Shown: piece after piece, positions 2,428-35,097 of the stretch
Layout: every line of letters starts with the position of its first letter
Position numbering within the stretch: the stretch's first letter is position 1
Translations under genes and position numbers: made by a program
Virus record (IMG/VR): IMGVR_UViG_3300025151_000134
Location: 1 to 35,411 of that record
Direction: 5' to 3' (one strand)
From: a virus
Length of the DNA stretch: 35,411 nucleotides
The notes under the pieces: generated by a model
Database searches by the model: none
Seen by the model: only the letters and a program-made list of their open reading frames with translations
What the model was told of the DNA's origin: nothing

Positions 2428-2886
2428 TTAACATTTCCATCTACGTCTAGCAGCTCTACCTCTTTCACCGGTCCAACCCTTTGATCTAGCGCAGAATGAT
2501 TTTCTTCTTTTAGCAGCTTTACTTCCTGGTTTTACTTTTCCAGTTACCGCTGTTTTTAATTTACTACCTGGGTTTTTTCTTTTATATGCTCTTACACCAG
2601 CTTCAGTCATACCAGCACCTTCTTCTACTGTTCTAAAGTTACGACCTTTACCTTTTGTAGTTTTTCTAGGTTCGTTACTATTTAAAGGAGAAGATTTCTT
2701 ACAACTACCAGGCGCACAAGGTTTTGTACCAGGTACCCTACCGTAACCTTTCCAACAGTTACATTTCTTATTATAAGGACTATGATCATAACCCTTCTTT
2801 TCTAAAGCTAAATGCTCCTCATAGGTATTAGCTTTTTCTGTTTTATACATATTGTGAGGTTTAAACCCCTTCATTTTGAACGCCAT
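2428..2886 (-). CDS. basic Cys-containing phage protein (DUF6321-like C-terminus)
   Basis: A 152-residue basic protein in two parts. The N-terminus shares MAFKM[KR]GF with the next gene and then has four cysteines, C42, C44, C57 and C62, a plausible metal site. Residues 88-152 (GAGMTEAGVRAYKRKNPGSK, a KPGSKAAKRRKSFCAR block, C-terminal RRRWKC) match a short domain frequent in phage proteins, where the usual ending is SFCAR...RKW.C; I associate it with DUF6321 from memory. Function is unknown. The SSPLN motif at 65-69 joins the SP-x-[KN] set described in the findings. The gene begins 18 bases after the stop of the giant gene, with no Shine-Dalgarno site. Confidence 0.82.
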   Translation of the reverse strand: MAFKMKGFKPHNMYKTEKANTYEEHLALEKKGYDHSPYNKKCNCWKGYGRVPGTKPCAPGSCKKSSPLNSNEPRKTTKGKGRNFRTVEEGAGMTEAGVRAYKRKNPGSKLKTAVTGKVKPGSKAAKRRKSFCARSKGWTGERGRAARRRWKC

Positions 2887-2904
2887 AGTTATATTATTAC
2901 ATGT

Positions 2905-5900
2905 TTATTGATGAGCATAACATTTCTTATTTTTATTCTCAGTCTTGTTGTTACAACGTTTACCATTTGCCTTTATCGCTGTACATCTGTACTCCTTTAA
3001 TCCATCGCCATCTCTATCCATTCCATCTTTAAATTCCATATGGTGCGGACATTTCCAGGTTTTAGCTTTAGTCTCCGTTGTTAATCCACATCTTTCACCA
3101 TTTGATCTAATACCAGAGCATTGAACAGTTTTTATTCCCTCTCTCTTTTTTCTTTCTTCTTCAGCTTTCTTTTCTTCTGCTTTTCGTTTTTCTTTTTCTA
3201 TTTTTCTATTTTTAGCTCTTTCTTCTTTCGCTTCTGCTTTCGCCCGTTCTAGTTCTTCATCTCTAACGCCAACACTCCACATGCTCCAACCCGTTGACAA
3301 AGCAACACGTTTCCATAAATCATGGTTACCCGTTATTGCTTCTTCTAAGTTATTCATTTTATGTTGTATTCTAGCCATAGGGAAATTAGTTAAACCCTCT
3401 ACTAAACCGCTTGCTATAGATAAATTAGGGTTCTCTATTCTAAATCCTATTTTTTCTCCAACACCTTTATTATATTTTTCTGTTTTTATAGCTTGATTCA
3501 ACTTCCTGAGCTTACTACCCATAGGTGGAGATAAACTAATAGCTTGAAGAGCTATTCTCATATCATCTCTTTTAGCCCATGGTTGCTCTGTTTCATACTT
3601 CCATTGTTTTAATGTATTTTTTAATGCCGCTACAGCTGCCCCATAAACACCAGTTCCTCTTAATAGTGTATCTATTGCTCCATCTAAAACTCTTATACCT
3701 TGTGTTCTTTTTCTTTTATCGTCTTCTTCGTCACCTCCTCCAAATAAAGCAAACGCTAATCCAGATTGTAAGGCACCGAATATTAAGTTTTGAACAGCAC
3801 CGTAGTATATTATTTTAGATATATTACTTCTTACATCACCTCTACCATTCTTAAGATCTAATACAGCTTTTTTCATTAACCTTGTCATCTGCATTGGTGT
3901 ATTTTGAAAGGGTAATATTATTCTACCTAATACACCAGCTTGTTGTCCTGATATTAAATCTGGTCTAGAAGACTGTTGCGTTTCTTCTGCTACCTCTTGG
4001 AAATCTAAAAATGCTTGTGATTCAGCCTGTTTTTGTGACATTCCATTTTTAATGTATGTATTTATTCTGTTTCTATAGAAACTAGCACCACCAAAAGATA
4101 TAGCGAAACTATCTGCTATTCTTGTTGGCTCAAATCCCTTCTCTAACATCCACCTAATTACTGACTCTACTTTACCTCTACTCTGAGAAAACGCGTCAGC
4201 AAGTTCACTATGTGATATATCTATTTGCGAACCACCTCTACGCTGTTTCAACATGTCAGAGTTAAATATTGTAACAAAATCTCTAGAGAATTGAGGTAGA
4301 TTAGCAAAAGCTTTAGAAGCTTTAAATATATTATTATCTCCCCAATTAATAAAGTTAACAGTAGATATTGTTTGTAACGCTGCAGATCTTACGTTTAAGA
4401 ACATGATCGCTCCAACAGAACCATTAATCCAGTTAACAAATTTGTTAACCGTCTTATCTTTACCAATAACTCTATTAGTACCGTTTTCCATTCTGTACAA
4501 TATATTTTCTAAAGCCTCTCTATATCCAGAACCATGTATAGCTTCTATTTTGTTTAAATTTTCTTTTGAAAATATTGTATTTTTATTTTCAATCCAATCG
4601 TTTAAAAACCTTTTCCTACCATCTTTTACAGTACCAAATAAATCACTTGCTATACTTTGAACCATCCAGTTTTCAGTTGGCTGTATATAACCATTTGGAT
4701 CACGAGATATAACACTTAATGTTTCAGCAAAGTTAACTAAATCATTATTGTTAGTTACGTGGTTTAATAATTTCTTTTTTGTCACCTCAGCCATTCCAGG
4801 TATATCCATGCCATTCTTGTGCCACAAGTAGGTTCTTACAGCTGTATCAACAGTATAGTTTGTTCCTGGTACTTTTTTGTTTAAACTGTTTACTATTTTA
4901 GGATTTTTCTTTTTTAAAGAAGCATATTCATTAGACATGTTCTGCTTGTAAGTATTCCACATTCTAATACCTTTTGCAAATGGATCAAATAGGTTTTCTT
5001 TAAACCATTTCATATCCGCGTCACCCTGCTTCCCTTTTCCTAAAAACTTATACATTAAACCTTTAAAATCCTCAGCTGATGGTGGAACAAACAAATCCCA
5101 TCTACCTTTACCAGCACCTCTTACTACAGCTTCACCTTTTGAAAACACTTTTTTAGCTTCAACACCAGATGTTCTTTCTATCATGTCGTTAAACTCAGTG
5201 CTAGCTGTTTTACTAAATTTAATTCTAGCTTGAACAGAACTTCCTTTTATATCCAACTGCTCCATAACGTCTTTCACTGCTTGAACGTTAGGTAGTGCGT
5301 CATCTACGAAATACATGTCATTATAACCTTCAGCAAACTTCTCTAACATCCATTCAGCTTTTGCCGCTCCAGTACTGTTTCCTAATCCAGTTATGTTTTT
5401 TAATGGTATATCCACTCCTTTTGATTTCAACCAACCATGAATAGCTATGGCAGCTGCTTGTGGTCTTGCTGTTAATACAAAGTTGTTTTCTGTTCCATAC
5501 TTTTGAATTCTATTTAACAGCTTTTGAAACAAAGGTCCTTTAACACCACCTCTTACATTAACAAAATCATCAAAATTAAAATCCCAACCTTCGTTCATTA
5601 ATTCTGTACCTCTTGTTGGCCAGTCTTCAGAACTTATTTTTTCAGTTTGTTTTGTTTTTGGATTAGTGGCTATAACGAAATTTTTACCTTTTATAATTAG
5701 TGTTTCATCAAAGTCAAATGTAGACATACCTACATTTTCATCAATATTACTAGCAGCTTTACTGTGCATTATTGTTTGATTAATTTTCTTTCTACCTTCT
5801 AATCTATCTCTACCCTCTTTACTAATTATACTATTTATATCAGTATCACTTATTATATCTATAGAGTTTTCACTGGTAACTTCTTTTGCTACAGGTATAA

Positions 5901-8900
5901 ACCGCATACTCATAGTTACCAAATCATATTCTCTACCTCTTTTTGACTTAACAGAGTTCTTGCCGTGTCTCCATCTTCCGGTAAATGTTCCCTCTAATTT
6001 ATTTGTATTTAATCCTAATGGGTTATTACCTAAATGAAACAAACCTCTTCCCAACCAATACATATATAGAGAAGGATACTTCTTGTTAGCATACATATCT
6101 TCTATTAGAGTTTCAGAAAAATCACTAGATGTTGACATTTCATTTAACAATCCTTCTTGTTGGATTATTTCAAAAGCCCAATTAGGAATATGATTCTTAT
6201 TATTCTTAAAGTTTTCTAATAATTCTTTGTGTGTATCTATTATACCTTCAGTTTCTGATAACTCATTTAGTCTTCTCTTGATCTTTACCCAACCTTTTGT
6301 TGCTCCTTTTAATAAATCTAATATCTTATCCTTATCTCTAAAGTTGTCAAAGTTATCTGTAGTAATATTTATATTACCTGTATCAATATTAACACTACCA
6401 GTTATACTACCTAGTTGAGCTTTGAACATTTTAACTTCAACATTAAACATTTCGTTATAAAGCTTAGCATACACATCTGGTAATCCACCTTCTTCCGTTT
6501 GAAATTCCGATAACAGCTCAACTCCAGGTATTTTATCAAATCTATTTATAACCCATTGCTCAAAACCACCGCTACGCTCGTATCCAGCTTTAATTATATC
6601 TTTACCCGACTTGTCTTTGGCTTTTAATATTTTATCCAATATCAACCCCTCGTTTTGGAATATCTTATCTTTTACTACTAATTCATTAAATATCCAATCA
6701 GCTTCACTTTGAGTAACTCTCCCCTTGTACTTGCCTTTTAATTTAGGAATACCATCTTTAGTATTTAAGTTAAACACGTTCTGTATTCCAACGTTCCCTA
6801 TTTCAACAGCTAATTTATACATTCTATCTAACTTAATAGAACCCTCTTCCGCCTTAGAAAACATTAATCCAGAACTTCTATCTATTTTATCTACAAGTTG
6901 TTCTATTAGTATCTTGGATTCAAATTGATTTTTTATATCCTTTATCGTGGCATATTTGTTTATAAATTCAGGAGTTAATATTTGAGGTGTAGCATCCTTT
7001 CCAATAGCCTTAGCAGCTTCAGATATTAATTTAATCCTATTATTACCTTTCGTTCCAGATCGCTTACCAGTTTTAGGATTTATAGCTGGTGGATTAATAT
7101 AGTTTTCGAAATCCCTAGGATTAACATCTAATCTTTCATAAACAGTAACACCTTCTTTTCTTTTCTTTTTACTTATAGGGTTATCTTTATCTAATATTTC
7201 TTTTGGTAATAGTTTTTTTCTACCAGGATTTTTACCTGACTTATTCTCACCATAAACAAAATCATTTAATTGCTTAAGGTTTGTCATTCTACCGTGATTT
7301 TTAATAAATATATTTTCTGGTAAAAATTTCTGCATTTGAATTAATGTTTTTATCGGTATAGATTTTAGTATGACTTTTCTATACTTAAACATATTTATGG
7401 GATCAAGTATTTCTTCTAATTTATTATATAAGGCGTCTGATAAATTTTGTTCATATGAACTTAAAAAAGTTTCTGAACTAACTACATCTGCTGTAGTTAA
7501 TGCGGTTTCAACCTTATTAAATATATCACTCTTTTCAATATCTTCAATTCCTATTTCTTTTCTAAATTCAGATTCCTCAACAACATCTTCAACAGAAACA
7601 CTCTCAGTTTGTTGACTGTCACCTATTTTTATTTTATCAGTAATTTTTTCTAAACTGTAATCAACATCTTGTACTTGAACTTTTTGAAGTCCCTCATCCG
7701 TGTACTCATCTAAACTTTTGTCTTTTCTAGATTTGTATATTTGATTATAAACATTTCCTGCTTTTTTACTTAGAAAAGAATTTATCCACCCAAATAAACC
7801 GCTTTCATTTCTTCTTTCGGGTTTATAGTTACGAACATGTGACAAAAGCTCTCCATAAACTGTTTCAACAAAGTCTGGTGGAACTTTGTCAGCTTTGTAT
7901 TGACTATATATTAATGCGTCTAAAAGTCCCTCAGATTGAATCTTTTCAAGTATAGAATCAGCGTCAGCTTGCCACATTATATTACCGCCTTCTCCTTCGT
8001 AGTTTTGATCCTCTAGTAAACCTGATTTACCTAATTGATTTATTCTGGGTCCGTGATCTTTAGAGAATAAAAACCCACTTTCCTCAAGAGCTTCTATAGC
8101 AGTATCAGAAAGCCCTTCTTCTTTAAGTTTTGTTTTTACTTTATCCATCTCAGCTTTAATCTGCTGTGATCTAGCTTGCATTTCATCACCTATTTTAAAC
8201 TTCTTCTCAAAAGCGTTTAGTAGTGATTTAGACAAATCTCCTCTTTGTATATTAGAATTAAAATCTTTTAGGAAATTATAAACGTCTCTACCGTCATTTA
8301 ATTCTATATTAGCTCCAAATCTCTGACCAATATGTCTAACCACATCACCTATCTTTGTCATCACAGATTCATTGTAGTTCATAGAACCACTAGCTAAACC
8401 ATCTAAGAATATAGTCATTGCTTCCTCGCTTTGTTCAGCTAAAGGTTTCTTTCTATAATTGTTAAGTCTATTTCTAAACTCTCCATCTTTAATCATTCTA
8501 GGATCTAGATTAGCTAAATGGTTTTGAAAAGAACTTGATAATGCTATTTTCAACTCCGGATTATTTCCAAGAGCTTCATTTAAGTAATGATGTAAAAATT
8601 CATGTCCAGCTACGTTACCTCCCTTTTTAGTTATAGCCATGTCTTCGGTGACTATTATTTTACTTTTATTGTTTATAGATAAATTAGCTGGTATAATAAA
8701 TCCATGTGAAGTTTGTATTTCACCTAGTATACTCTCTATAGTATTTCCACCTATTTGCTCAACTTTGTTTCCTTTTATATCTACAAAACCATCTTTTACT
8801 CTAGTTATACCTAACTCTCTTAGAGCCCACTTTTCAGCTCTTGTGGTATTTTTAACAGCCTTTAAAGATACTTTCTTTTTTATTTTTTTATTTTTCTCTA

Positions 8901-11900
8901 TAATATTTTTAACACCCTTAACAGTATCTTTAAATTGTTTTGATGTTTTCTTTTTTATTATAGCGTCTTTTATTGGGTTTATTATACTATTCTTTTCTGC
9001 AGTAAGTTGGTTAATCTTATTTTGTATATTAGATATATTTTTTGCTTTTTGTTTTTTACTTTCGTTTCCAGATTTGCTTTTATTTTTCTCATTTTCAAGA
9101 TGAGTTAGTTCGTTTCCAATTTGACCTAATCTATCTCTAGTGTCTTGGTTTTCAATAGAATTTAATATCTCTACTTCTGTAGCTGTTATCTCCCCTTTGG
9201 ATATAGCGCCACCTTTTATTTGATCAGCCTTTAAGCCATTTTTCTCTAAATAAGCTGAAGCTTCATCATATGCTGCGAAATCATTTCTTATTTCAATATC
9301 AAGATCTTTATTTAAAAGACCTTTCCGTTTCATTGTTCTTAAATACTTATCAGCCTCTTTCCACGTTGAAAATCTGTGGTCATTTATATAATAAGTTGAG
9401 GTTAAATCTCCCTGAACTTTACTTATACCAGTTCCTGTAATAGAAAAAGCTCCATTCATAACGGCGACAGAATGTAGCATTGTTTTTAATCCACGGGTAT
9501 CTAAACCTAAGTTTTTTCCATCTTCGTCATACCTAAAAATACCTTCTAAGACATTATCATTACCATCAGCAAGGTTACTTAGAGGATAGTTTATTAACTC
9601 TTCCCCAACCTCTCCTATTATCCCATGCCAACCAGCATTCTTTTTAGCCCAATCCAAAACTTCTTGGGATGTTCTAAAACCCATCTTCCTCATAAATCTA
9701 CCAAGTGCTATACGTTGTAGCATGTCACTATTTACAATATTATCTAGAGGTGTTTTGCTAAGACCTTTCACTCCTAGTCTTCCTATACCAGGAAATAAAG
9801 CTCCTAATCTTTCCGTTAAAAGTTCTACACCATTAACACCAAAAGATCTACGAAGAGCTTGATCGAAAGACATGTCTGATTGTTTTAATCCCAGCTCCTT
9901 ACCCGCTTCATCACTAGCTGAAATACCTTCTATTCCAGTAATCAAACCATCACCATCTGTTGAAAAGGCGTGGACGTATTCATCTGTTAATCTTTCAGCT
10001 GCTCCTCCTGTAATTCTCCATGGAGTCATAGATGTTTGAGCAATTAATCCATTGAGCGTAGCCAATGCATCAACACCTTTTTCACTAACAGTTAGTTTTG
10101 CACCTGATTTAGCGAATAAAAGTTTACTACCATCTTTAGACACTCTAGCTCCATCGAACAATCTTTTAGTTAAATTTTTTCTAAAAGCTAATTTTGTAGC
10201 CGTACTAGCAGCTTTAAATCCTCCCCCGGTTAAAGCAAACTCAGATATAAATACAAAAGATTGAGCAGCCCCAATTCCAGCATTATACTTAGTTGATAGT
10301 TTACTTTTCAAACTATCTGATTGATCTTTTAAACTAGCAATCGCTAAAAACTGTTTTTCTAAAGCTGTTTTATTTTCTTTGTTTGCTATTTCTCTTAATC
10401 TTTCCTTATCATTAGCGTCTATCATACCACCAAAAACTGGCATGTATTGATGACCTTGAAGATCGAGAAATCCGCTGACAAAATGTGAAGTACCTAAATC
10501 TCTAATTGTTTCTGGATTCTCAGCTAATTGGTTAGCGTATCTTAACGCTTGATCTCTCATTGGTCTAATTTCCTCAAAGTATTTCCTAGCGACATATTGC
10601 TCTAATTGAAAATCTTTCAAACCCATTTTTTCACCCTCCTCTCTTATCTTTTCTAATTCAGGCGTATATTTGTTTATAGTATAAGTTGGAGTATCATACT
10701 TTGTTTGTCCAGCTACAACTGATATATCAGGTTTTGGTAAAGAATTTATTTGTTCAACAACCTCTTCACCCATTGTTTTTAAATAAAATTGAGTCGATTC
10801 ATCGTCTTCAGTTCCTTTTATACCATCTTTTCCTGCTGTTTTATTTAATTTCTCGTAAAAATAAGAGTAGTATTCGTTAATATACTCTTGTCTATCTTCC
10901 GTGCTAGTAAAAACACCCTCCTTTGCTCTCAACTGTCTCTGCAGTTCCATCTCTAGTATTTTAACTTTATCATGAGCGTTGGCGTTAGCAAAACCTTTAG
11001 AATCTAAATTATTTCCAATAGTATTTAACTCCCCCTCTTCCCATTTATCATAAGTCGGTTTAAACTCACTTATATAATCATTTACTTTTTTATCATAAGA
11101 CGACTCCCATTCTTTAAGTTTTTCATCAGTAAATTTCAAATACTCTTCATCTTCGTATATCAACTCGTTTAATCTATCGTTATATCTATTATTTATATTT
11201 GAGAAATATTTTTTCTCTAATTCTTTAGCTTCTTTTGAAAAAGCTTCCTCTATTAGTTCAATTTTTCTTTTATTTCTTTCTTCATCTCCTACACCAAGTG
11301 TTGGCATTCTTTTTTGATAGTATTGTGTTATTGCATTTAACTCTTCTTCAAATGCGGCTTGAGCCTCAGTCATTTCCTCCTCAAACTCTTTGTCAAGTTC
11401 TGGTATAACTCTATTTACAGCTTCCTGTATAATAGGTTTACGCTCTTCATCCATATTTGTTTCAAAGATAGAATACTCCTCAGCCATACTTCTAGTTAAA
11501 GAGGTAGTTAACTCTTGTCCTTTGTAGTTTTCAAAATCAGTTTGAGTAAATTTTAATTCAGAATCAGGTTCATATAGTGTTAGCTCTTGAGTTATATCAT
11601 TAACGTTTTGATTCTGTTGAACTATCTGAGCGTCAGACATGTCTTCTTTACCACCTATGGATCTAGATTTTATTTTATTTGCTTTTTGATGATTCTTATA
11701 TAAAAAATCTAATTCATACCAAAGTGTTGAATTTTCACTTTTGGTAAATCCAGCATATGTTTTAAGTTGTTTATCTACTTTGCCAGTTCCAGTTTTACTA
11801 TATGGATCTGGTATTGAAATAGTTTTAGAACCTGGCTTTAAATTTTTCAAAAATTCATCAGTAGATTGATCTTTTGGTTTATGTTTTTTTAATATGTTAT

Positions 11901-12189
11901 CATAGTTATCTAAACTAATTTCACTATCGTTTATATCAATAGTATTATTATTAGAATAATTATCTTCTAATGTATAAGTTGTGTTTTTTCGTTCTATTTT
12001 GCTTGTAAACTCAGATTGATCCACCTTCGCTTTATCAACTGTAGAATTTTGTTGATCTATTGAATTGTCTATTACTTCGACTTTATTGTCTTTAGCCTCT
12101 TGTCTAGCTTGTTTTTCATGTTCCTCACTAGTAACCATGAATGTATCACCATTTACGGTTATCTTTTTTGGATATTCGTTTTCTGCCAT
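2905..12189 (-). CDS. 3094-residue multidomain (polyvalent-type) virion protein
   Basis: By far the largest gene in the window. Residues 1-600 are charged, helical and coiled-coil-like. Residues 640-960 contain hydrophobic helices and an EF-hand-like loop STDGDGLITGIE (743-754). A zincin site HEFLH lies at 1196-1200 with a Glu pair, E1255-E1256, as possible third ligand. D1905-x12-E1918-V-K1920 fits a PD-(D/E)XK nuclease. HAD motifs follow: DFDET (2159-2163), T2240 in LTARP, and DD at 2296-2297. Residues 2580-2860 resemble the region I know as large-polyvalent-protein domain 38. A Lys/Glu coiled coil precedes two Cys/His knuckles (3024-3050, 3069-3093). The layout matches polyvalent phage proteins thought to enter the host with DNA. 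The position beside internal-protein genes supports a packaged protein. The catalytic assignments rest on motifs alone. Confidence 0.9.
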   Translation of the reverse strand: MAENEYPKKITVNGDTFMVTSEEHEKQARQEAKDNKVEVIDNSIDQQNSTVDKAKVDQSEFTSKIERKNTTYTLEDNYSNNNTIDINDSEISLDNYDNILKKHKPKDQSTDEFLKNLKPGSKTISIPDPYSKTGTGKVDKQLKTYAGFTKSENSTLWYELDFLYKNHQKANKIKSRSIGGKEDMSDAQIVQQNQNVNDITQELTLYEPDSELKFTQTDFENYKGQELTTSLTRSMAEEYSIFETNMDEERKPIIQEAVNRVIPELDKEFEEEMTEAQAAFEEELNAITQYYQKRMPTLGVGDEERNKRKIELIEEAFSKEAKELEKKYFSNINNRYNDRLNELIYEDEEYLKFTDEKLKEWESSYDKKVNDYISEFKPTYDKWEEGELNTIGNNLDSKGFANANAHDKVKILEMELQRQLRAKEGVFTSTEDRQEYINEYYSYFYEKLNKTAGKDGIKGTEDDESTQFYLKTMGEEVVEQINSLPKPDISVVAGQTKYDTPTYTINKYTPELEKIREEGEKMGLKDFQLEQYVARKYFEEIRPMRDQALRYANQLAENPETIRDLGTSHFVSGFLDLQGHQYMPVFGGMIDANDKERLREIANKENKTALEKQFLAIASLKDQSDSLKSKLSTKYNAGIGAAQSFVFISEFALTGGGFKAASTATKLAFRKNLTKRLFDGARVSKDGSKLLFAKSGAKLTVSEKGVDALATLNGLIAQTSMTPWRITGGAAERLTDEYVHAFSTDGDGLITGIEGISASDEAGKELGLKQSDMSFDQALRRSFGVNGVELLTERLGALFPGIGRLGVKGLSKTPLDNIVNSDMLQRIALGRFMRKMGFRTSQEVLDWAKKNAGWHGIIGEVGEELINYPLSNLADGNDNVLEGIFRYDEDGKNLGLDTRGLKTMLHSVAVMNGAFSITGTGISKVQGDLTSTYYINDHRFSTWKEADKYLRTMKRKGLLNKDLDIEIRNDFAAYDEASAYLEKNGLKADQIKGGAISKGEITATEVEILNSIENQDTRDRLGQIGNELTHLENEKNKSKSGNESKKQKAKNISNIQNKINQLTAEKNSIINPIKDAIIKKKTSKQFKDTVKGVKNIIEKNKKIKKKVSLKAVKNTTRAEKWALRELGITRVKDGFVDIKGNKVEQIGGNTIESILGEIQTSHGFIIPANLSINNKSKIIVTEDMAITKKGGNVAGHEFLHHYLNEALGNNPELKIALSSSFQNHLANLDPRMIKDGEFRNRLNNYRKKPLAEQSEEAMTIFLDGLASGSMNYNESVMTKIGDVVRHIGQRFGANIELNDGRDVYNFLKDFNSNIQRGDLSKSLLNAFEKKFKIGDEMQARSQQIKAEMDKVKTKLKEEGLSDTAIEALEESGFLFSKDHGPRINQLGKSGLLEDQNYEGEGGNIMWQADADSILEKIQSEGLLDALIYSQYKADKVPPDFVETVYGELLSHVRNYKPERRNESGLFGWINSFLSKKAGNVYNQIYKSRKDKSLDEYTDEGLQKVQVQDVDYSLEKITDKIKIGDSQQTESVSVEDVVEESEFRKEIGIEDIEKSDIFNKVETALTTADVVSSETFLSSYEQNLSDALYNKLEEILDPINMFKYRKVILKSIPIKTLIQMQKFLPENIFIKNHGRMTNLKQLNDFVYGENKSGKNPGRKKLLPKEILDKDNPISKKKRKEGVTVYERLDVNPRDFENYINPPAINPKTGKRSGTKGNNRIKLISEAAKAIGKDATPQILTPEFINKYATIKDIKNQFESKILIEQLVDKIDRSSGLMFSKAEEGSIKLDRMYKLAVEIGNVGIQNVFNLNTKDGIPKLKGKYKGRVTQSEADWIFNELVVKDKIFQNEGLILDKILKAKDKSGKDIIKAGYERSGGFEQWVINRFDKIPGVELLSEFQTEEGGLPDVYAKLYNEMFNVEVKMFKAQLGSITGSVNIDTGNINITTDNFDNFRDKDKILDLLKGATKGWVKIKRRLNELSETEGIIDTHKELLENFKNNKNHIPNWAFEIIQQEGLLNEMSTSSDFSETLIEDMYANKKYPSLYMYWLGRGLFHLGNNPLGLNTNKLEGTFTGRWRHGKNSVKSKRGREYDLVTMSMRFIPVAKEVTSENSIDIISDTDINSIISKEGRDRLEGRKKINQTIMHSKAASNIDENVGMSTFDFDETLIIKGKNFVIATNPKTKQTEKISSEDWPTRGTELMNEGWDFNFDDFVNVRGGVKGPLFQKLLNRIQKYGTENNFVLTARPQAAAIAIHGWLKSKGVDIPLKNITGLGNSTGAAKAEWMLEKFAEGYNDMYFVDDALPNVQAVKDVMEQLDIKGSSVQARIKFSKTASTEFNDMIERTSGVEAKKVFSKGEAVVRGAGKGRWDLFVPPSAEDFKGLMYKFLGKGKQGDADMKWFKENLFDPFAKGIRMWNTYKQNMSNEYASLKKKNPKIVNSLNKKVPGTNYTVDTAVRTYLWHKNGMDIPGMAEVTKKKLLNHVTNNNDLVNFAETLSVISRDPNGYIQPTENWMVQSIASDLFGTVKDGRKRFLNDWIENKNTIFSKENLNKIEAIHGSGYREALENILYRMENGTNRVIGKDKTVNKFVNWINGSVGAIMFLNVRSAALQTISTVNFINWGDNNIFKASKAFANLPQFSRDFVTIFNSDMLKQRRGGSQIDISHSELADAFSQSRGKVESVIRWMLEKGFEPTRIADSFAISFGGASFYRNRINTYIKNGMSQKQAESQAFLDFQEVAEETQQSSRPDLISGQQAGVLGRIILPFQNTPMQMTRLMKKAVLDLKNGRGDVRSNISKIIYYGAVQNLIFGALQSGLAFALFGGGDEEDDKRKRTQGIRVLDGAIDTLLRGTGVYGAAVAALKNTLKQWKYETEQPWAKRDDMRIALQAISLSPPMGSKLRKLNQAIKTEKYNKGVGEKIGFRIENPNLSIASGLVEGLTNFPMARIQHKMNNLEEAITGNHDLWKRVALSTGWSMWSVGVRDEELERAKAEAKEERAKNRKIEKEKRKAEEKKAEEERKKREGIKTVQCSGIRSNGERCGLTTETKAKTWKCPHHMEFKDGMDRDGDGLKEYRCTAIKANGKRCNNKTENKNKKCYAHQ

Positions 12190-12221: not shown

Positions 12222-13334
12222 TTAAACTTTTCTTCCAAGTGAAGCTGCTATAGCTCCTGGTGTATATGGTTTTGGCTTTTTACTAGCTTGTGTCGATGCT
12301 ATTTCAGTTTGTTTAACTGGACTTGGTCTACTACCTCTACCAGTATTCCATTGGTTTTTTAAGAAATTAACAAAATAATTAGTTAACTCTTCTTTTAATA
12401 ACTCATCGTGATCTGGATTTTCTATAACGTCTCTAGCTATAATATCAGCTTCTTCATCATTAATTCCATCTTTAGCGTTCACTCCATCTAAGTTAATACC
12501 TAAATCTCCATAAGTGTTTCTTTTTATCATTTCTTTAAAATCTTCAAAGAAAATTCTACCTGTTATCATTTCGTCGTAACAAAGTGATTTTATGTTATTT
12601 GTTTTACCAACAACACTAGCTTTAACCTGTCTTCTAGCAGCGTTTTCATTAAATGGTATATTGTCAGCTGGATTAGTTTGAGTAGATTGCGTTAGGTAGT
12701 TATTACCCATAGCTATTATGGTATCTTTAGTTCCTTGATCTTTAGATAAAATACCATTTTTAAGATTGTTTATAGAACTCCATTTGTAAGCGCCAAACTG
12801 AATAGTTTTATTCAATTTATCTCTTTCTTCTAAATAAGGTTTAGCATAAGCCATTTGTATCTCTGAATTTGCAGAACCATACTCCTTATCAAGATCTTTT
12901 AAAACTTGGTCAGCACTATCCATTGTTTCGAAATCAGGCATCATAATACCTAGTTCATTTTTATTACTACAATGAGCGTCTCCAGGTTCACATATTTTCT
13001 CTACCAACCTCTGGTCATTTCTTAATAAATTCATTGTAGCTTGACCTTCTCTAGTTTCACTCCAACCGTTCATTAAAGCTCCAGTATTGTAAGCTGCGGC
13101 TAAATCTTGTCTAAAGTTTTTATACTGCTTAAGAGATTGAGATGCCATATTTGTCCAAGCCATTATTTCACCTTTCCTTTTATTATCACCATCCATCGCT
13201 GCTTTGACATACTCATGCTTTTTATTCATAAGTACATCAGATAACATGTTGAATTCTGCAACAGGTAATTCGCCGTCAATATCTATTACAGCTTGAACTA
13301 ATTCTTGGTGTTCTGCGTTTATATCCTTTTCCAT
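12222..13334 (-). CDS. internal virion protein (putative), 370 residues
   Basis: The longest open frame begins with TTG at 13361 and would overlap the upstream gene by 8 bases. I choose ATG at 13334 (MEKDINAEHQ), which leaves a 19-base A/T-only spacer typical of this genome. The protein is mostly helical and charged. It has an Asp-rich calcium-loop-like stretch LDGVNAKDGINDEE around D283 and a basic, disordered tail with SRPSPVK (335-341). No catalytic motif is visible. It lies between a membrane/ejection-type protein and the giant polyvalent protein, so a structural role inside the capsid or tail, or as a partner in DNA ejection, is the best guess from context. The family is not recognised by name. 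Confidence 0.78.
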   Translation of the reverse strand: MEKDINAEHQELVQAVIDIDGELPVAEFNMLSDVLMNKKHEYVKAAMDGDNKRKGEIMAWTNMASQSLKQYKNFRQDLAAAYNTGALMNGWSETREGQATMNLLRNDQRLVEKICEPGDAHCSNKNELGIMMPDFETMDSADQVLKDLDKEYGSANSEIQMAYAKPYLEERDKLNKTIQFGAYKWSSINNLKNGILSKDQGTKDTIIAMGNNYLTQSTQTNPADNIPFNENAARRQVKASVVGKTNNIKSLCYDEMITGRIFFEDFKEMIKRNTYGDLGINLDGVNAKDGINDEEADIIARDVIENPDHDELLKEELTNYFVNFLKNQWNTGRGSRPSPVKQTEIASTQASKKPKPYTPGAIAASLGRKV

Positions 13335-13353
13335 TATATTAAAAAAATTATTA

Positions 13354-14088
13354 TTAAACAAGACCAGGGCATGGTGCTGGGTTATCTAAGTAACTTGGTC
13401 CCGACTGATCAAAAACCTCAGAATCTGGTTCTGGTGGTTCTTCCTCACCAAACTCTGGTTGACATGTCACACATGGTTGTGCGGGAGGAGTTGAGAACAT
13501 ATCACCAAGAGATTGTAAACCTCCAGATATAGCGTCCCACTTAGCTTGTTCTGCAGCGAAAGCTTGTTCTCTATATGCAGCAGTTTCAGCAGCTGACATA
13601 CCTAGTAGTGTTGCTGTCTTATCTCTCTCTGCATTTCTTGACCACACCTCACCTTCACGTTCTTTATATTGTATATTAGAAGCCATTTGTCTCTCTTTCA
13701 TCTGATTCTCTCTTTCTTGGGAACCTATTTTAGAAGCAGACTGTTGAGCGGCTAATTGTCCTTGATTTGCTAGTGATTGAGCCACTGCAGCTATTCCTGA
13801 TCCGCCTGCGGCTTCCCGTAAATCACCTAATATATTTCCTTGACTTTGTTGGAATTGTTGTTTTTCTAACTCAAATTGTCTCTGATTGATGGTTAAATCT
13901 TCCATCGTATTTTCTAAATCAGTATACGGGTTGCTAGTGTCTAAAGAAGAATAAGCCTCCTTTAAACGACCTAACTCTTGTGCCGCTATAGCTTCTTTAC
14001 GCTCAGCTTCCCTTTTCATCTTATCAGCACTTTTTACACCAATAGCAGTTCCACCGATTGTAGCCATCATACCGAATATCATTGACAT
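13354..14088 (-). CDS. internal/DNA-ejection protein (putative)
   Basis: A 244-residue protein. Residues 1-20 (MSMIFGMMATIGGTAIGVKS) form a Gly-rich hydrophobic helix that could cross a membrane or line a channel. Residues 20-180 are Gln/Glu/Ala-rich, amphipathic coiled coil, including an Ala/Gly-rich centre (AAGGSGIAAVAQSLANQGQ). This resembles the N-helix-plus-coiled-coil internal proteins of podoviruses that form the ejection channel through the envelope. The C-terminal 50 residues are acidic and Pro-rich, with a CVTC pair and a further Cys near the end. It ends 19 bases before the chosen start of the next gene. Assignment by architecture and context; no enzymatic motif is present. Confidence 0.78.
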   Translation of the reverse strand: MSMIFGMMATIGGTAIGVKSADKMKREAERKEAIAAQELGRLKEAYSSLDTSNPYTDLENTMEDLTINQRQFELEKQQFQQSQGNILGDLREAAGGSGIAAVAQSLANQGQLAAQQSASKIGSQERENQMKERQMASNIQYKEREGEVWSRNAERDKTATLLGMSAAETAAYREQAFAAEQAKWDAISGGLQSLGDMFSTPPAQPCVTCQPEFGEEEPPEPDSEVFDQSGPSYLDNPAPCPGLV

Positions 14089-27729: not shown

Positions 27730-29238
27730 TTACTTCATTAACATAAAGTTGTTTGCACCTTGTGTGATTAAACATCTTTCAGTTAAGAAATGTATAGACA
27801 TTGCATCAAGCGCTGATGTAGCAGCTCCAACCGAACCAGTAACCCAAGATTTAAATCTTCGATCATCAGTTTGAGAAGCTCTATATCTAACATGTAAGAA
27901 TGGTCTCTTCATGTTCGAACCAACTTGTTGGTCATAAACAGAAGACATTCCAGCAGGAACCATAACACCTCTAATAGCATTAGTTGCGTTAGCGTCATTA
28001 ATACTTCCTCTTGTAGCTTTGTCATTTAAGTATCTGAAGTCAGATTTGTAGAAGTCATAAGAACCTCTTCTAAATCCTGAGAAACCTAAGTTTAACGCCA
28101 TGTCCTCATCGTTGTCGAATACTCCATAAGAAGTACCTCCAGCTCCGTAAGAATTCATTGAAGCAAGCATATCATCGATAGCTAAACTAGTAGCACGATT
28201 AACAAACATCATGTATTCTTCAATAGCACCTTGTTTGTCGAACTCAGCTAAAATAGCATCGAATTCAGCTAAATCAGTAGCAGCATTAACACCAGTTACA
28301 CCGGAAGTTAAGTTACCTCTTTCCTCAATAGCAGCAAATAAACCTTCAGTACCAACAGCTCCAGCACCAGTCCCAGAACCAGCAACCAAATCAGAACCAT
28401 CAATAGTAGAATTAGCGGCATTTAACTCGCCTTCAATCATTGCCATTTCAATGTAATCAGTAAATCTTGCTCTAGTATCAGCTTCAGCTTTTAGATACCA
28501 TAAATATCCAGATTCTCCAGCTTCTGTAGAAACTTCAACCCAACCTACTCTAGCAACGTCAGATCCTGATACTTCGTAGTAATCTTTCATTATAATTGGC
28601 TTATTAACAAAAGTTTTGAAATCAGGTTCGTTACCGCCTCTCAAATCAGTATCAGCACTATTAGCCGCGTTTCTATAGCTCATGCCTTTTCCATACTCAG
28701 AACCATAAACTAATATTGTTGTAGTTTTTGATCCACCAGTTGTACTAAGACCTAAAACGTTTAAAGAAGCTTCAGCATAAGGTTGAATATCAATAACAGC
28801 ACCCGCTACCGCTTCTACAATACACTTAACCACACCTTCTGAGTTTGCTACAATAATTGTATCATTAACTCTAATACCATGATTAGCAGCTGTAAAACCA
28901 GCAGTTTCGTCAATATCAGCTTCAATTTCAATTTGTCCACCACTTGCTGTACCACCAGCATTTGATTCAACGTGTCCCTTATAAGATAAATGTAATCTAC
29001 CTTGTTCAGACCAGACGACTTGATCAGACGTCATAGCCTCTTCTGCACCAACTTGAGATAAGAAACCAGAAATTGTTCGTGGACCGAACACTTCAGCTTC
29101 TTGCTCCATTAAGTCAGGCAGGTATTGTTGCGCCCAGCCAGCTGTAGCTGTCGCAGTAAAATCTATATAGTTTGTAGATAGTGTTTGCTTTTGTGGAGCA
29201 GGTACACTATTCAAACTACTTCCCGCAGTAATTGCCAT
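27730..29238 (-). CDS. major capsid protein (HK97-type fold expected)
   Basis: A 502-residue protein. The N-terminal region LSTNYIDFTATATAGWAQQY, then LPDLMEQEAEVFGPRTISGF, and the C-terminal block FLHVRYRASQTDDRRFKSWV ending in LTERCLITQGANNFMLMK match, from memory, the capsid proteins of crAss-like and other Bacteroidota podoviruses. Residues 80-160 (SGGQIEIEADIDETAGFTAA, then VNDTIIVANSEG) look like an inserted beta domain. The E-loop and A-domain were not located precisely. Placement right after the scaffold gene and before a strong hairpin fits the most highly expressed late gene. No protease gene is visible nearby, and a cleaved delta domain is not evident. Confidence 0.92.
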   Translation of the reverse strand: MAITAGSSLNSVPAPQKQTLSTNYIDFTATATAGWAQQYLPDLMEQEAEVFGPRTISGFLSQVGAEEAMTSDQVVWSEQGRLHLSYKGHVESNAGGTASGGQIEIEADIDETAGFTAANHGIRVNDTIIVANSEGVVKCIVEAVAGAVIDIQPYAEASLNVLGLSTTGGSKTTTILVYGSEYGKGMSYRNAANSADTDLRGGNEPDFKTFVNKPIIMKDYYEVSGSDVARVGWVEVSTEAGESGYLWYLKAEADTRARFTDYIEMAMIEGELNAANSTIDGSDLVAGSGTGAGAVGTEGLFAAIEERGNLTSGVTGVNAATDLAEFDAILAEFDKQGAIEEYMMFVNRATSLAIDDMLASMNSYGAGGTSYGVFDNDEDMALNLGFSGFRRGSYDFYKSDFRYLNDKATRGSINDANATNAIRGVMVPAGMSSVYDQQVGSNMKRPFLHVRYRASQTDDRRFKSWVTGSVGAATSALDAMSIHFLTERCLITQGANNFMLMK

Positions 29239-30466: not shown

Positions 30467-32866
30467 TTAACGAGGGCCAAATTCACCTAATCCTACTCCC
30501 CCTGTAACTATATCATTACCTGATGATTCAAAACCTTTACCAGAATCACCTGATTTTCTTTGCTCTATCATATCTCTTTGATGAGCAGCTTGTCTATCTA
30601 TACGTTCATCTTTTCTATCTTCTCTCATCATCTCTAACTTATTTGAAACCTCTGTTTCTTGAGCTCTTGCACTAGAATTTAATTTAAACTCTAACATCAT
30701 TAACTCTTTTTTAACTCTAGCTTCTTGTTGTAAGAATTGAATTTTTAAATTACTCTTTGTTTTCTCCAACTCTTGCTCTCCTTTTATTTTTGTTTGATTC
30801 TTCTCTATCTCAATTTTTGCCGCTTCTTGAGCTGCCATAGATTGAGATTGTGCTTGTGATTGCATATTTTGTTGAGCCATAATTTGATCTCTCTCCATCT
30901 TCTTCCTTCTCTTTAATTTTAGCAATTGATTAGCTAACTTAAGATTTCTAACCTCTCTTATATCTATAGCGTCATCAAGATCAATCATTTTCTGTCCTAA
31001 TGCAACTTGTATGTTGTTTTCAAGCATTTGTTTTTCTTCGTCGTCTGGTAATAACTCTATAAATATACCAAACTCATGGAGATGTAATTCGTTCATTTCA
31101 CCTAGAGTAGCAACGTTATGAGCACCTATCGCTTGTATAAATGATTCTCGTGTTGGAGAATATTCTATTATATCAGCAATTCTCAATGACATACACTCAG
31201 CCATTTCAGCTGTTAAATACAACATTGATTGTAGTATATGTCTAGTAGCTGTATTTGAATTAGCTGCAGCAAGTTTTTGAACTCCAACTAAAGTTTTAGG
31301 ATCAGGTACTGTGCCATCTCTAGCTTCAGTTAAACCTGTCACATCTCTTATCATTTGTAGATAGTAATTGTAAGTAGCTATCAAACTTTGTATTTTGTTT
31401 CCTCCACCACCATTTTGTATTTGTTGTATTGGTACTTTACCAGGATTTTGATCCCCCTCTGATGTAAAACTTCTACCAACAACACTACCAGTTTGGAAGA
31501 ACATGTTTAGAGCTTCTTGTGGATTATAGTTTGTTCCATTACCAAGATCAACTTCTGCTAAACCATCAACATCAAGATATACACCATCTGGTACCATTCT
31601 TGATAATACTTGTTGTAACTTTAAATGTGTCAACTGAATCATATCAGCAAAACCTGTTATTCTACCAACTAATGATTCTATTTTTCCATTATATATTCTA
31701 GGTGCAACAACTTGATATGTCATTTTAACTTTACTAAAATTAGATTGACTCCTCATCATATTAGGCATCATTCTCCATCTTAGTAATTTATTTGAGCCTA
31801 TAACATAAACACCTTCAAATAAAACCTCAACGCTTCTTTCTATTTTACTAAAATCTCCTTCTTTATCCTCAGGTGGATTAAATGTATCGTCTTTTTCTAT
31901 AACCTTTTCTCCTCCGGCTGCTGTTTTCTTTAACTTATAAACATTATTACCAAAAGTTTTATAATTAAAATATAAAACGTTTATTTTGTTTTTATCTCTA
32001 TGCGGAGTATGTCTTAATGGATCTGTTGATTTATCTGTTATTTCTTTTATTTCCTCCTCTGTTAAATCTGGAAATTCTTTTATTAATTCATTAACAGGTA
32101 TTTCTTTTACTTCTCCAATATAATATATATCATCAAAATAAGGAGATTCAGTGTAAGAATATATTAAATTAGCTGGATCAACGTATTGAACTTTAGCTCC
32201 ATCCGTGAAATCAAATGTTGTTTTTGTAGCACCTATACCTATCGTTGTTATATCATATAAACATCTTCTTCTTATTAAATCATAATCACTACCTTCCATT
32301 AATACATTTATAGCTTGTTCTTCAGCCATTTCAACAGCTTGCTTATAGTTAAGCTGCATGTGTAGTTGTAATTCTTCATCTGAATCAGGTAGTGTACTTT
32401 CATCATTCTCGTACAAATCTATATTAAACTGTTGCTTAACCATATCGTTAAACTCTCTAGCTCTCATATCTCTTAATATAGACTCCATATATTCTGTTCT
32501 CTTGTTAACTCCATGTATGTCTTGAGAAAAACATTTTATATCAAAAGATCTATTAGCCATTCCATTAACTACTATATCTACAAACTTAGGTATAATAGGA
32601 ACAGGTTTCCAATCTAAGTTTAAATAAGATAAATCACCATTTATAGATAATTCATTTTTATATTTTTGGATTGACTGTTCTCCTCTAGCGTACAATCTTA
32701 ATTGATGAAAACTATTTATATTGTTCAAATACTTATTGTTACTTCCACTAAACCATTCGCTATGAATAGCTTTAGCAACCTTGAGTCCATATTCTTCACT
32801 TAGTTTCTCTAAATCGCTAACCGCTTGAGACGGAAAACTGACGAAAGTATTTCGACTGTTATTCAT
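30467..32866 (-). CDS. portal protein
   Basis: A 799-residue protein that forms the dodecameric portal through which DNA is packaged and ejected. The segment YLNLDWKPVPIIPKFVDIVV, preceded by SINGDLS, is a landmark I associate with portals of crAss-like and related podoviruses. Long helices and a GLTEARDGTVPDP turn follow in the centre. Residues from about 650 to 775 are Gln/Glu/Lys-rich coiled coil, consistent with the barrel of long portals. The chain ends SSGNDIVTGGVGLGEFGPR. The ATG overlaps the TGA of the terminase gene (ATGA), so translation is coupled. The length is larger than P22-type portals and matches the long portals of this group. Confidence 0.92.
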   Translation of the reverse strand: MNNSRNTFVSFPSQAVSDLEKLSEEYGLKVAKAIHSEWFSGSNNKYLNNINSFHQLRLYARGEQSIQKYKNELSINGDLSYLNLDWKPVPIIPKFVDIVVNGMANRSFDIKCFSQDIHGVNKRTEYMESILRDMRAREFNDMVKQQFNIDLYENDESTLPDSDEELQLHMQLNYKQAVEMAEEQAINVLMEGSDYDLIRRRCLYDITTIGIGATKTTFDFTDGAKVQYVDPANLIYSYTESPYFDDIYYIGEVKEIPVNELIKEFPDLTEEEIKEITDKSTDPLRHTPHRDKNKINVLYFNYKTFGNNVYKLKKTAAGGEKVIEKDDTFNPPEDKEGDFSKIERSVEVLFEGVYVIGSNKLLRWRMMPNMMRSQSNFSKVKMTYQVVAPRIYNGKIESLVGRITGFADMIQLTHLKLQQVLSRMVPDGVYLDVDGLAEVDLGNGTNYNPQEALNMFFQTGSVVGRSFTSEGDQNPGKVPIQQIQNGGGGNKIQSLIATYNYYLQMIRDVTGLTEARDGTVPDPKTLVGVQKLAAANSNTATRHILQSMLYLTAEMAECMSLRIADIIEYSPTRESFIQAIGAHNVATLGEMNELHLHEFGIFIELLPDDEEKQMLENNIQVALGQKMIDLDDAIDIREVRNLKLANQLLKLKRRKKMERDQIMAQQNMQSQAQSQSMAAQEAAKIEIEKNQTKIKGEQELEKTKSNLKIQFLQQEARVKKELMMLEFKLNSSARAQETEVSNKLEMMREDRKDERIDRQAAHQRDMIEQRKSGDSGKGFESSGNDIVTGGVGLGEFGPR

Positions 32867-35097
32867 ACTTTTTGTTTTATTATTCTTGATGAAATTCCTT
32901 TGTTATTATATTTTGATATATTTAAATTTAATGATGATACCTTTCTATCAGGATTAGGTTTGTATAAATGTCTATTACAAGCCATTATCGCTAATCCAGA
33001 ACTTATAGAAGCATCATGCTTCGTTCTTTTTGTTATATCAAACTTAGACCAATCATTTAATGTTTCATTAAAATACATGGTACCATAAGTGCCGTCTTCT
33101 AATAATCCTACGTGATCATTAATATACATTTCAACAGCTGCGGCGTGTGCTTGTTTTATGTCTTCACTTGAATTAGGTATACCACCTACTTCTTTTTCTG
33201 ATACAGATAATTTGTTCCAAATCTTATCTGGTCTATTCATACTAAACTTTCTATAACCTCTTCTTCTTAGGTAATATAAAAGTCTAGGTTTGTTATTTTC
33301 CGCTAATAGTGGCATTCCATAAAATACCAATGCCATCAGTACGTCTTCAAAAAATATATCAGCTGTTTGAGGTCTTGCTATGTATTCTAAGAAGAATGTG
33401 TTTGCTGGAGCGTCTTCCATTGAAAACTTAGTTAATCCGTGTAAAGCTCCTTTTGATCCTCTACCATCTACTGTTCCTGATATATCATATGAGTCACAAC
33501 CAAATGCTCCCATATGTTCATTGCCTGGATATTTTACGCCATTTTTTAATATAACGTTATTTTGTAATCTTTGACCCGGAACCCAACTAACTTTAAACCT
33601 ACCATTTGGATCTGGATTAAAGACGACTTGAGTATCTTTAACTCCATTAGTCCATTGAAAGTTCCCAATTGTTAATACAGATGAATTTCTATTTCCTTCG
33701 TTATAATCTATTTGTTCGTATATCTTTACTAAGTTAAATAAACTATTTCCTGTTTCATCTCTAAACGCATGTTCTTCAGTTCTTGGAAACTGACGGTAAA
33801 ACTCATTCAAAGCGTCTTGGTCATCTTTTAATCCATCAGCTTCATTATCCCAGTGATCTATAACTCCATACTCTATTTCTACTCCATGTGGATCAAATGC
33901 TTGTTTTTCTGGAGAATTGAAAACAGGTTGTCCGAATTCATCAATGAATCCCTCGTAATTCCACTCCATAGGAATAAACAAAGAATATAGTCCCGACTTA
34001 GTTTGTCCATTTCTATTTCTTTTTGTAACATCTGAGTTGTAATATAAGTTCTTAAAATTATCCCCACCTTTATCTAATGCGTTACTTGTTGATCCCATCA
34101 TACACTTACCTATAATTCTACTACCTAATCGTAGACAAGTTTTTGTTACTCTCCAGTTATTTTTTATATTATCAGGTCTCTCCCACTTACCACTTTCATC
34201 ATGTACTAATAAAGAAAGTTTTTCACCATCATAACTATTATCACCTGTATTTTTCCAATCGATAGTTGTATCTAATCCCTCCATATCATCTTGTTCCTCT
34301 TTTTCCCTCATCTTTTTACGAGTAAACTTTTTAGCGGGTACCCTGTAAGCGAGTTCGGACTTCGGTCGGTCCATACCGTCTTGTATCGGTTTGAAGAAGA
34401 ATGGATAGTTTAAACTAATTGGCACCACTTTATCAGTAAACATCTTTTTAGCGTCGGCACCAGTTTTAGATAATATACCAAATCTACTATCACTTGCTAA
34501 TGTTGCTTGATTAACTGTTTCAGCTGAACTCATAAATGAAAAACCGGAACGTCTATTTTTTAAATAACACATTCCATAACATCTATTATCCGCCTTACAA
34601 GCTTCCCAAAATATAAAGAATAATCTATTTGCTTCTCTGAAATCAGGAGCTCCAACATCAATTTTACTCCATTGTAGATACATATAATGTGTACCGGTCA
34701 AATATGTTGGTTTACCGTTGTTCATAAACCAAAACCCTTCTTCTCTTCTCCTAAACTCCTCATCTATATAACCATAGTGTTTTTCCTTAAACTCATCAGG
34801 ATATCCTTGCCAATCAAATACGGTTTTAATTCTTTTAAAATCAGGGTTAGCAGGAAATTGTCTCCATTTTTGCTCTGATTTATTTTTGCTACAAGAATAA
34901 ACTTCTTTTGGTTCTTTTGGAAGCGCTATTTTAAAACCTTGAATTTCAAGTATTTCTCCTATCATTCCAGTTTTAGATATAACTACAACATCGTTTTCTT
35001 TATTATAACCATACTCCCACTTTTTAGATTTATTCAATCTTTTTATAGTGTTTAGCTTTATTGGTTCTATAACCTTATATAACGTTTGTTCGTACAT
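32863..35097 (-). CDS. terL: terminase large subunit
   Basis: A 744-residue packaging motor. The ATPase part has a Walker A-like loop K180-NRRSGFS (180-187) preceded by CYL, a Walker B ending in D300-E301 (LSLLVHDESG), and the coupling-type motif MMGSTSN. The nuclease part has D535 in FGCDSYD, and D695 in KHDASISSGLAIMA is a candidate acidic residue. The Walker A lacks the usual GK[ST], as in several crAss-like terminases. The ATG overlaps the upstream stop (TAATG), and the gene ends in TGA, overlapping the portal start. A 60-base island of 55% G+C lies inside at 34331-34390. Confidence 0.94.
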   Translation of the reverse strand: MYEQTLYKVIEPIKLNTIKRLNKSKKWEYGYNKENDVVVISKTGMIGEILEIQGFKIALPKEPKEVYSCSKNKSEQKWRQFPANPDFKRIKTVFDWQGYPDEFKEKHYGYIDEEFRRREEGFWFMNNGKPTYLTGTHYMYLQWSKIDVGAPDFREANRLFFIFWEACKADNRCYGMCYLKNRRSGFSFMSSAETVNQATLASDSRFGILSKTGADAKKMFTDKVVPISLNYPFFFKPIQDGMDRPKSELAYRVPAKKFTRKKMREKEEQDDMEGLDTTIDWKNTGDNSYDGEKLSLLVHDESGKWERPDNIKNNWRVTKTCLRLGSRIIGKCMMGSTSNALDKGGDNFKNLYYNSDVTKRNRNGQTKSGLYSLFIPMEWNYEGFIDEFGQPVFNSPEKQAFDPHGVEIEYGVIDHWDNEADGLKDDQDALNEFYRQFPRTEEHAFRDETGNSLFNLVKIYEQIDYNEGNRNSSVLTIGNFQWTNGVKDTQVVFNPDPNGRFKVSWVPGQRLQNNVILKNGVKYPGNEHMGAFGCDSYDISGTVDGRGSKGALHGLTKFSMEDAPANTFFLEYIARPQTADIFFEDVLMALVFYGMPLLAENNKPRLLYYLRRRGYRKFSMNRPDKIWNKLSVSEKEVGGIPNSSEDIKQAHAAAVEMYINDHVGLLEDGTYGTMYFNETLNDWSKFDITKRTKHDASISSGLAIMACNRHLYKPNPDRKVSSLNLNISKYNNKGISSRIIKQKV
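34331..34390. other. G+C-rich island inside terL
   Basis: 33 of 60 bases are G or C (55%), against about one third around it. On the minus strand the codons include CGA, CCG, TCC, CTC, AGG and CCC, which look uncommon in this A/T-rich genome. GGAC and GTCC arms are present. It might be a packaging-initiation site or a recombined patch. Confidence 0.35.

Follow-up and report, generated by a model that had tools for sequence, protein, structure and literature searches.

A giant protein with zincin-like, sigma-region-2-like and HAD domains in the third-ejection-protein position of a short-tailed virus, probably of marine Bacteroidota

The locus and its gene neighbourhood

The window (the whole stretch of viral DNA that was analysed, 35,411 nucleotides) is a 35.4-kb IMG/VR fragment in which every long gene lies on the minus strand, in one structural module. 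The module encodes the terminase large subunit (TerL), portal, major capsid protein (MCP), head-tail proteins, a 2226-aa protein, smaller genes and a giant protein. The genes that define the module and the position of the giant are:

32863..35097, minus strand: terminase large subunit, 63% identical to that of podovirus ctfjg026 and ~46% to that of Elemovirus
30467..32866, minus strand: portal protein
27730..29238, minus strand: major capsid protein, which places the module and the phage group
13354..14088, minus strand: 244-aa gene with the position and look of T7 gp14, the first ejection protein (synteny)
12222..13361, minus strand: 379-aa gene directly upstream of the giant, in the position of T7 gp15, the second ejection protein (by synteny)
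2905..12189, minus strand: giant gene, 3094 aa, ATG start, last gene of the structural module

The first-pass annotation had reported an open reading frame of 3094 residues at 2905-12189, and this gene is real; it is read from the minus strand, the plus strand there being full of stops. The motif positions reported with it are exact, namely HEFLH at residues 1196-1200, D1905, E1918-V-K1920, DFDET at 2159-2163, T2240 (in LTAR) and D2296-D2297, and a chance origin of these motifs is ruled out by their conservation across the family. The label 'virion cluster' was also right, because the neighbours of the gene are TerL, portal, MCP and other structural proteins.

Elemovirus comprises phages of Flavobacterium, and the similarity of the capsid protein extends to the Cellulophaga phages phi38:1 and phi13:2. 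Because the TerL and capsid kin include phages of these two genera, the host of this short-tailed virus is probably a marine member of the Bacteroidota. Many of the genome bins with relatives of the giant are Bacteroidota as well.

The structural module also ends in a giant gene in ctfjg026 (3859 aa), Elemovirus (3694 aa), phi38:1 (1691 aa) and phi13:2 (1990 aa), and the counterparts in the last three carry a structural-protein annotation. In every related phage examined, the giant is the third and largest of three consecutive genes, following two small ones. The 244-aa gene of the window shows weak similarity to phi38:1 gp99 (E 0.02); for the 379-aa gene, no clear sequence match to the named related phages was found. 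Since a gp14-like gene and a gene in the gp15 position lie directly upstream, the giant occupies the slot of the third ejection protein, whose occupants include T7 gp16 and N4 gp50. Judged by this gene position, the giant is probably packaged and delivered into the host with the viral DNA.

The family of the giant and exchange of its modules

No close relative was found when IMG/VR was searched with the whole protein, and relatives were reached instead via TerL and the gp14-like gene. Among 50 long relatives obtained in this way, 32 encode a homologue of the giant, and a profile of the C-terminal part matches at least 590 stretches in IMG/VR. Layouts were compared across about 130 giants. A tblastn search against 50,697 phage records returned solely a weak match to a 462-kb uncultured phage (LR756500.1, 143166-143669), where a 166-aa stretch is 26% identical to the HAD region. 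The layout is constant across the family. A variable N-terminus is followed by a single zincin-like domain; next come a middle part that varies and is several hundred residues long, the HAD slot and a helical C-terminus of ~670 residues. In the giant of the window, these and additional parts are placed as follows:

8800..12189, minus strand: variable N-terminal third, residues 1-1130 (coverage count of relatives)
9424..9675, minus strand: LPD14-like stretch, residues 839-922 (E 7.1e-5, 23.3 bits, below the Pfam cut-off of 27), seen in one relative too
8116..8715, minus strand: zincin-like metallopeptidase domain, residues 1159-1358, with HEFLH at 8590-8604 and the distal glutamate E1256
7678..8064, minus strand: sigma-region-2-like domain, residues 1376-1504 (homologue L212, hhalign, VIA-align)
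6226..6702, minus strand: PD-(D/E)XK-like accessory domain, residues 1830-1988, with E1877, D1905, E1918 and K1920
5173..5799, minus strand: HAD phosphatase-like domain, residues 2131-2339 (motifs and predicted structure)
3190..5202, minus strand: conserved all-helical C-terminal domain, residues 2330-3000
2911..3120, minus strand: two Cys3-His zinc-knuckle-like repeats at the very C-terminus (C3024..., C3069...), from sequence, with weak DUF5763/HGG_STG matches

None of the relatives covers residues 1-100 and few cover residues 101-1000; no transmembrane helix stands out at the N-terminus of the window's giant. L137 is the closest relative of this giant, with 82% identity from residue 2154 through to the C-terminus and almost nothing in common before that point. 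At the DNA level, the identity to L137 is 82.5% from 2882 to 5731, with none further upstream in the gene. The break at 5731 coincides with the start of the HAD domain and, from the sequences, looks like a module swap. As the similarity stops there, two thirds of the protein have been exchanged between close relatives; the alignments thus show that the N-terminus and middle of the giant are exchanged even at this short distance.

Four proteins of uncultured viruses (A0A218MLT5, A0A218MMX7, A0A218ML07 and A0A7S9STY3) belong to the same family, with Foldseek E values of 1e-82 to 7e-62 over the HAD domain plus C-terminus. None of them has been characterised; the name given to one, UDP-GlcNAc kinase, would suit the nested-kinase form described below. 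When models of 985 and 991 residues were compared by Foldseek alone, helical proteins dominated the results. Nothing meaningful emerged when PDB sequences were searched with profiles from the alignments of the HAD, zincin, PD-(D/E)XK, C-terminal and sigma-like regions, and the pentatricopeptide and designed-repeat matches that these searches returned were rejected as repeat artefacts.

The zincin-like and sigma-region-2-like domains

The HExxH motif is present in 113 of 115 surveyed relatives, and its H, E and H are identical in all 18 aligned ones. A glutamate about 60 residues further on, E1256, is invariant in a 31-member alignment and is a putative third ligand; in the predicted model, both HExxH and E1256 lie on helices. 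The zincin profile also picks out two other giants, that of Elemovirus at 35 bits and, as a weak match, that of ctfjg026 at 17 bits. A structure search with the predicted model returned no zincin row. The protease site proposed in the first-pass annotation thus stands on its invariant residues and on the profile link to the Elemovirus and ctfjg026 giants, while the fold expected for it found no structural match.

Directly after the zincin-like domain, a segment resembling sigma factors was found in 53 giants, always in this place. In the window it spans residues 1376-1504, and the top 21 rows of a VIA-align search with it are all sigma region 2, at modest Z scores of up to 6.8. The window's own segment has no Pfam match; it is related to the corresponding segment of L212 (E 4.9e-11), which matches Pfam Sigma70_r2 at 28 bits (curated cut-off 24), or at 22.4 bits within the whole L212 protein. 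With hhalign, comparison to an alignment of 35 sigma region-2 sequences gave a score of 28.3, with regions 2.2 to 2.4 in the register expected; the controls stayed lower, at no more than 15.9 for the giant's other domains and 11.9 for 60 column shuffles. An earlier, poor sigma alignment had given a weak hhalign result. The Pfam match of L212, the link from L212 to the window, the hhalign score relative to its controls and the structure ranking together make residues 1376-1504 probably a relative of sigma region 2.

The domain shares its fold ranking and the sequence pattern of regions 2.2-2.4 with the Sigma-70 family, and differs from Sigma-70 factors in that it sits inside a virion-cluster giant and that Pfam showed no region 4 in the window, L212 or L228. 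T4 gp55 is evidence that a factor with region 2 only can work. A separate sigma factor gene is present in 17 of 19 long relatives.

The HAD domain, its insertion slot and the nested kinase

HAD motifs I (DxDxT), II (T), III (K) and IV (DD) are all found in the window's domain, and motifs I, II and IV are intact in 106 of 106 complete domains. The predicted structure is a HAD Rossmannoid fold with a small cap hairpin. In VIA-align, this model reached Z scores of up to 10.0, and HAD folds fill nearly all of the top 30 rows. The predicted structure and the invariant motifs bear out the HAD assignment that had been made from the motif set. Nearest folds include Pnkp1 (4xru, Z 9.7, 117 residues, 2.8 A) and T4 polynucleotide kinase (1ltq, Z 9.4, 122 residues, 3.1 A); both rank among the first four rows, but unrelated HADs such as Nir2 (Z 10.0) score within 1 Z of them.

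The spot between HAD motifs I and II is a hot spot of domain insertion in the relatives. In about 21 of them, the phosphatase fold is interrupted and then resumed because a P-loop kinase of ~200 residues is inserted there. The nested kinase scores with AAA_33 (2e-14), Zeta_toxin (3e-14) and PHROG polynucleotide kinases (4e-8). In other relatives the kinase takes the HAD slot by itself:

Kinase nested in the HAD domain: L107, L108, L109, L127, L129, L141, L143, L144, L150, L152, L153, L156, L157, L159, L160, L162, L163, L174, L219, L232
Kinase alone in the HAD slot, HAD missing (7 relatives): L120, L133, L186, L191, L199, L206, L214

The giant of the window has the HAD domain alone, the P-loop kinase being absent; nested or alone, the kinase is present in about 28 relatives. 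On a tree of the C-terminus, presence of the kinase changes at least six times and the nested form at least four times. Other inserts were seen in the same neighbourhood. In the L122 giant, residues ~1475-1600 form an insert at the same HAD spot that by eye looks like an ADP-ribosyltransferase, and L166 and L220 carry, just after the HAD domain, a ~150-residue insert resembling an acetyltransferase.

An RNA ligase is encoded in eight of the 19 long relatives, including the closest, the record of L137, and its presence shows no strict match to that of the kinase. RtcB ligase is absent from these 19 relatives, and no standalone AAA_33 kinase gene was found in them, the matches being inside giants only. 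In the record of L137 (G056, 64045-66383), the RNA ligase and sigma factor genes lie ~2 kb apart, and the same pairing occurs in G002, G040, G049, G057, G058, G066 and G068.

The phosphatase domain of the T4 polynucleotide kinase/phosphatase (PseT) has a fold like the giant's HAD domain (Z 9.4, 122 aligned); sister phages of the window add a kinase, and several genomes an RNA ligase. The arrangements differ, in that the kinase of PseT is N-terminal whereas that of the sister giants is nested inside the HAD domain, and the window's HAD domain is without kinase and part of a huge chain. In jumbo phages, HAD phosphatases fused to polynucleotide kinases have been described as RNA-repair enzymes, with kinase, HAD and ligase (PMC7824862).

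The nuclease site that had been proposed upstream of the HAD domain fared less clearly. The pattern E...D...ExK is there: E1877, D1905, E1918 and K1920 are invariant in a 4-member alignment and can also be made out in L111, L114 and a small number of other relatives, and D1905, E1918 and K1920 are invariant wherever relatives align, although only ~9 do so. The region has no fold or profile match and its model is of low confidence. It is best described as PD-(D/E)XK-like.

The C-terminus and comparison with other giants

The helical C-terminus is the most constant part of the giant. Among predicted viral structures, its matches include many proteins that bear the names polyvalent, ART-PolyVal, MuF-C or nuclease (E 1e-13 to 1e-4). 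A region after the HAD domain had been likened to a known large-polyvalent-protein (LPD) domain; the resemblance to polyvalent proteins holds at the level of predicted structure, but the sole Pfam LPD signal, LPD14, precedes the zincin-like domain. With E values allowed up to 10, LPD38 (PF18857) matched neither the window nor any of 18 relatives, and no control genome matched it either.

Phage polyvalent proteins carry many enzymatic domains plus a zincin, are injected and are proposed to be processed by the zincin (Iyer et al. 2017, PMC5512222). The giant likewise joins several disparate enzyme-type domains in one chain (zincin, HAD, sigma-2-like and PD-(D/E)XK-like, with the kinase in relatives) beside virion genes, and its helical C-terminus is structurally like LPD/PolyVal proteins. 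This anatomy and the genomic position support the polyvalent-protein class that the first-pass annotation had suggested. Its description of the combination as unusual was overstated, enzymatic domains with a zincin being the defining theme of the class (PMC5512222). A text search of the main text of the same paper found no naming of a HAD phosphatase, polynucleotide kinase or sigma factor. What is unusual is the sigma-2-like domain, along with the nested kinase that sister phages carry in their HAD domain; neither was part of the first-pass annotation.

The virion RNA polymerase of N4, gp50, is a third ejection protein in which a large helical domain comes after a HExxH domain (PMC12633501). 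Like the giant, it is long (~3,500 aa) and is the last and largest of three ejection proteins, with HExxH preceding a helical C-terminal part (PMC12633501). In contrast to gp50, no RNA polymerase domain was recognised in the giant at the sequence level (no Pfam or PDB sequence match for a single-subunit RNA polymerase), and a sigma-2-like and a HAD domain are found instead. No peptidoglycan-cleaving domain was found in it. The giants of Elemovirus, Callevirus phi38:1, Baltivirus phi13:2 and ctfjg026 occupy the same genomic slot, and the zincin is homologous in Elemovirus and weakly so in ctfjg026, but none of the four has detectable HAD or C-terminal homology to the giant of the window.

Proposed function and alternative explanations

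The sequence shows that the gene of the giant closes the structural module, behind two small genes of ejection type, and that it encodes zincin-like, sigma-region-2-like and HAD domains and a conserved helical C-terminus. The reading that we favour, with a probability of roughly one half, is that it serves a Bacteroidota podovirus as third ejection protein and has the build of a polyvalent protein, one that cleaves itself and brings in modules for transcription takeover and nucleic-acid end healing. The helical ends would package the giant and help to form a DNA conduit, as in N4 gp50, and after entry the zincin would cut the chain into separate units. Ahead of all phage gene expression, the sigma-2-like unit would bind the host RNA polymerase and redirect or block it. 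The HAD unit would remove 3' phosphates from broken nucleic-acid ends, joined in sister phages by the nested 5' kinase, after which an RNA ligase of the phage itself could seal ends cut by host defence nucleases. The PD-(D/E)XK-like unit may be an optional extra nuclease.

The substrate of the HAD domain could be of another kind. With the nested kinase of relatives, it may act on small molecules, as a zeta-toxin-like UDP-GlcNAc kinase and a sugar or nucleotide phosphatase that disturb the host's wall precursors or defence signals. In the relatives, the scores of Zeta_toxin and AAA_33 are equally good, the close structural relative A0A218MLT5 is named UDP-N-acetylglucosamine kinase in UniProt, and the HAD domain ties in Z with small-molecule HADs. 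The PHROG polynucleotide kinase matches, the PNKP phosphatase domains among the nearest folds, the joining of kinase to HAD as in PNKP and the RNA ligase in the same genomes all argue for nucleic-acid ends, and we regard action on small molecules as possible but doubtful.

Somewhat less probable still, and unlikely on the whole, is a giant that is mainly mechanical, a virion core or conduit in which the zincin is a maturation protease and the other enzyme-like domains are scaffolds for assembly or ejection. The Cellulophaga counterparts (1691 and 1990 aa) lack HExxH and have no HAD match, so the slot itself needs neither, and the constancy of the helical C-terminus fits such a role. A mechanical part would not be expected to keep catalytic residues invariant over a diverse family, nor to gain, lose and swap enzyme modules as frequently as this one does. 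That the giant is a late-expressed, unpackaged factor working inside the producing cell is very improbable, given its place as the last structural-module gene directly after ejection-type genes, the structural annotation of its positional counterparts and the resemblance of its C-terminus to polyvalent proteins.

Significance

Short-tailed phages without a packaged RNA polymerase must begin transcription and survive defence nucleases before any gene expression. For the delivered polyvalent protein favoured above, the strongest form of the proposal is that a single virion-delivered polypeptide does both: its sigma-2-like domain would seize the host RNA polymerase at entry and its end-healing phosphatase, with the kinase nested in sisters, would undo the work of defence nucleases, the units being freed by the built-in protease. 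We put this forward tentatively, as having a minor chance of being correct in full. If it is true, an abundant group of aquatic Bacteroidota phages solves transcription start and nuclease survival with one exchangeable protein, and the HAD slot is a natural record of early counter-measures swapped in and out.

Ejection and polyvalent giants with a zincin are known already. What is new are two concrete parts that can be tested, one a domain of sigma-2 type inside a virion giant and the other, in relatives, a kinase enclosed by a phosphatase. If the proposal holds, these would to our knowledge be the first sigma-type factor known to be injected and the first end-healing enzyme in which a kinase lies within a phosphatase; a limited search of the open-access literature found no paper on a HAD-nested kinase or an injected sigma factor.

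Other genes of the window

The 2226-aa structural protein (18260-24940) is probably part of the tail tip or nozzle, and counterparts of ~1300-1600 aa lie in the same place in related phages. At the edge of the fragment, positions 3-443 encode a protein of the phrog_1501 family (unknown function). Downstream of the giant are two small, very basic proteins (2428-2886 and 2037-2411) with the common start MAFKM(K/R)GF, which are possible DNA-binding paralogues.
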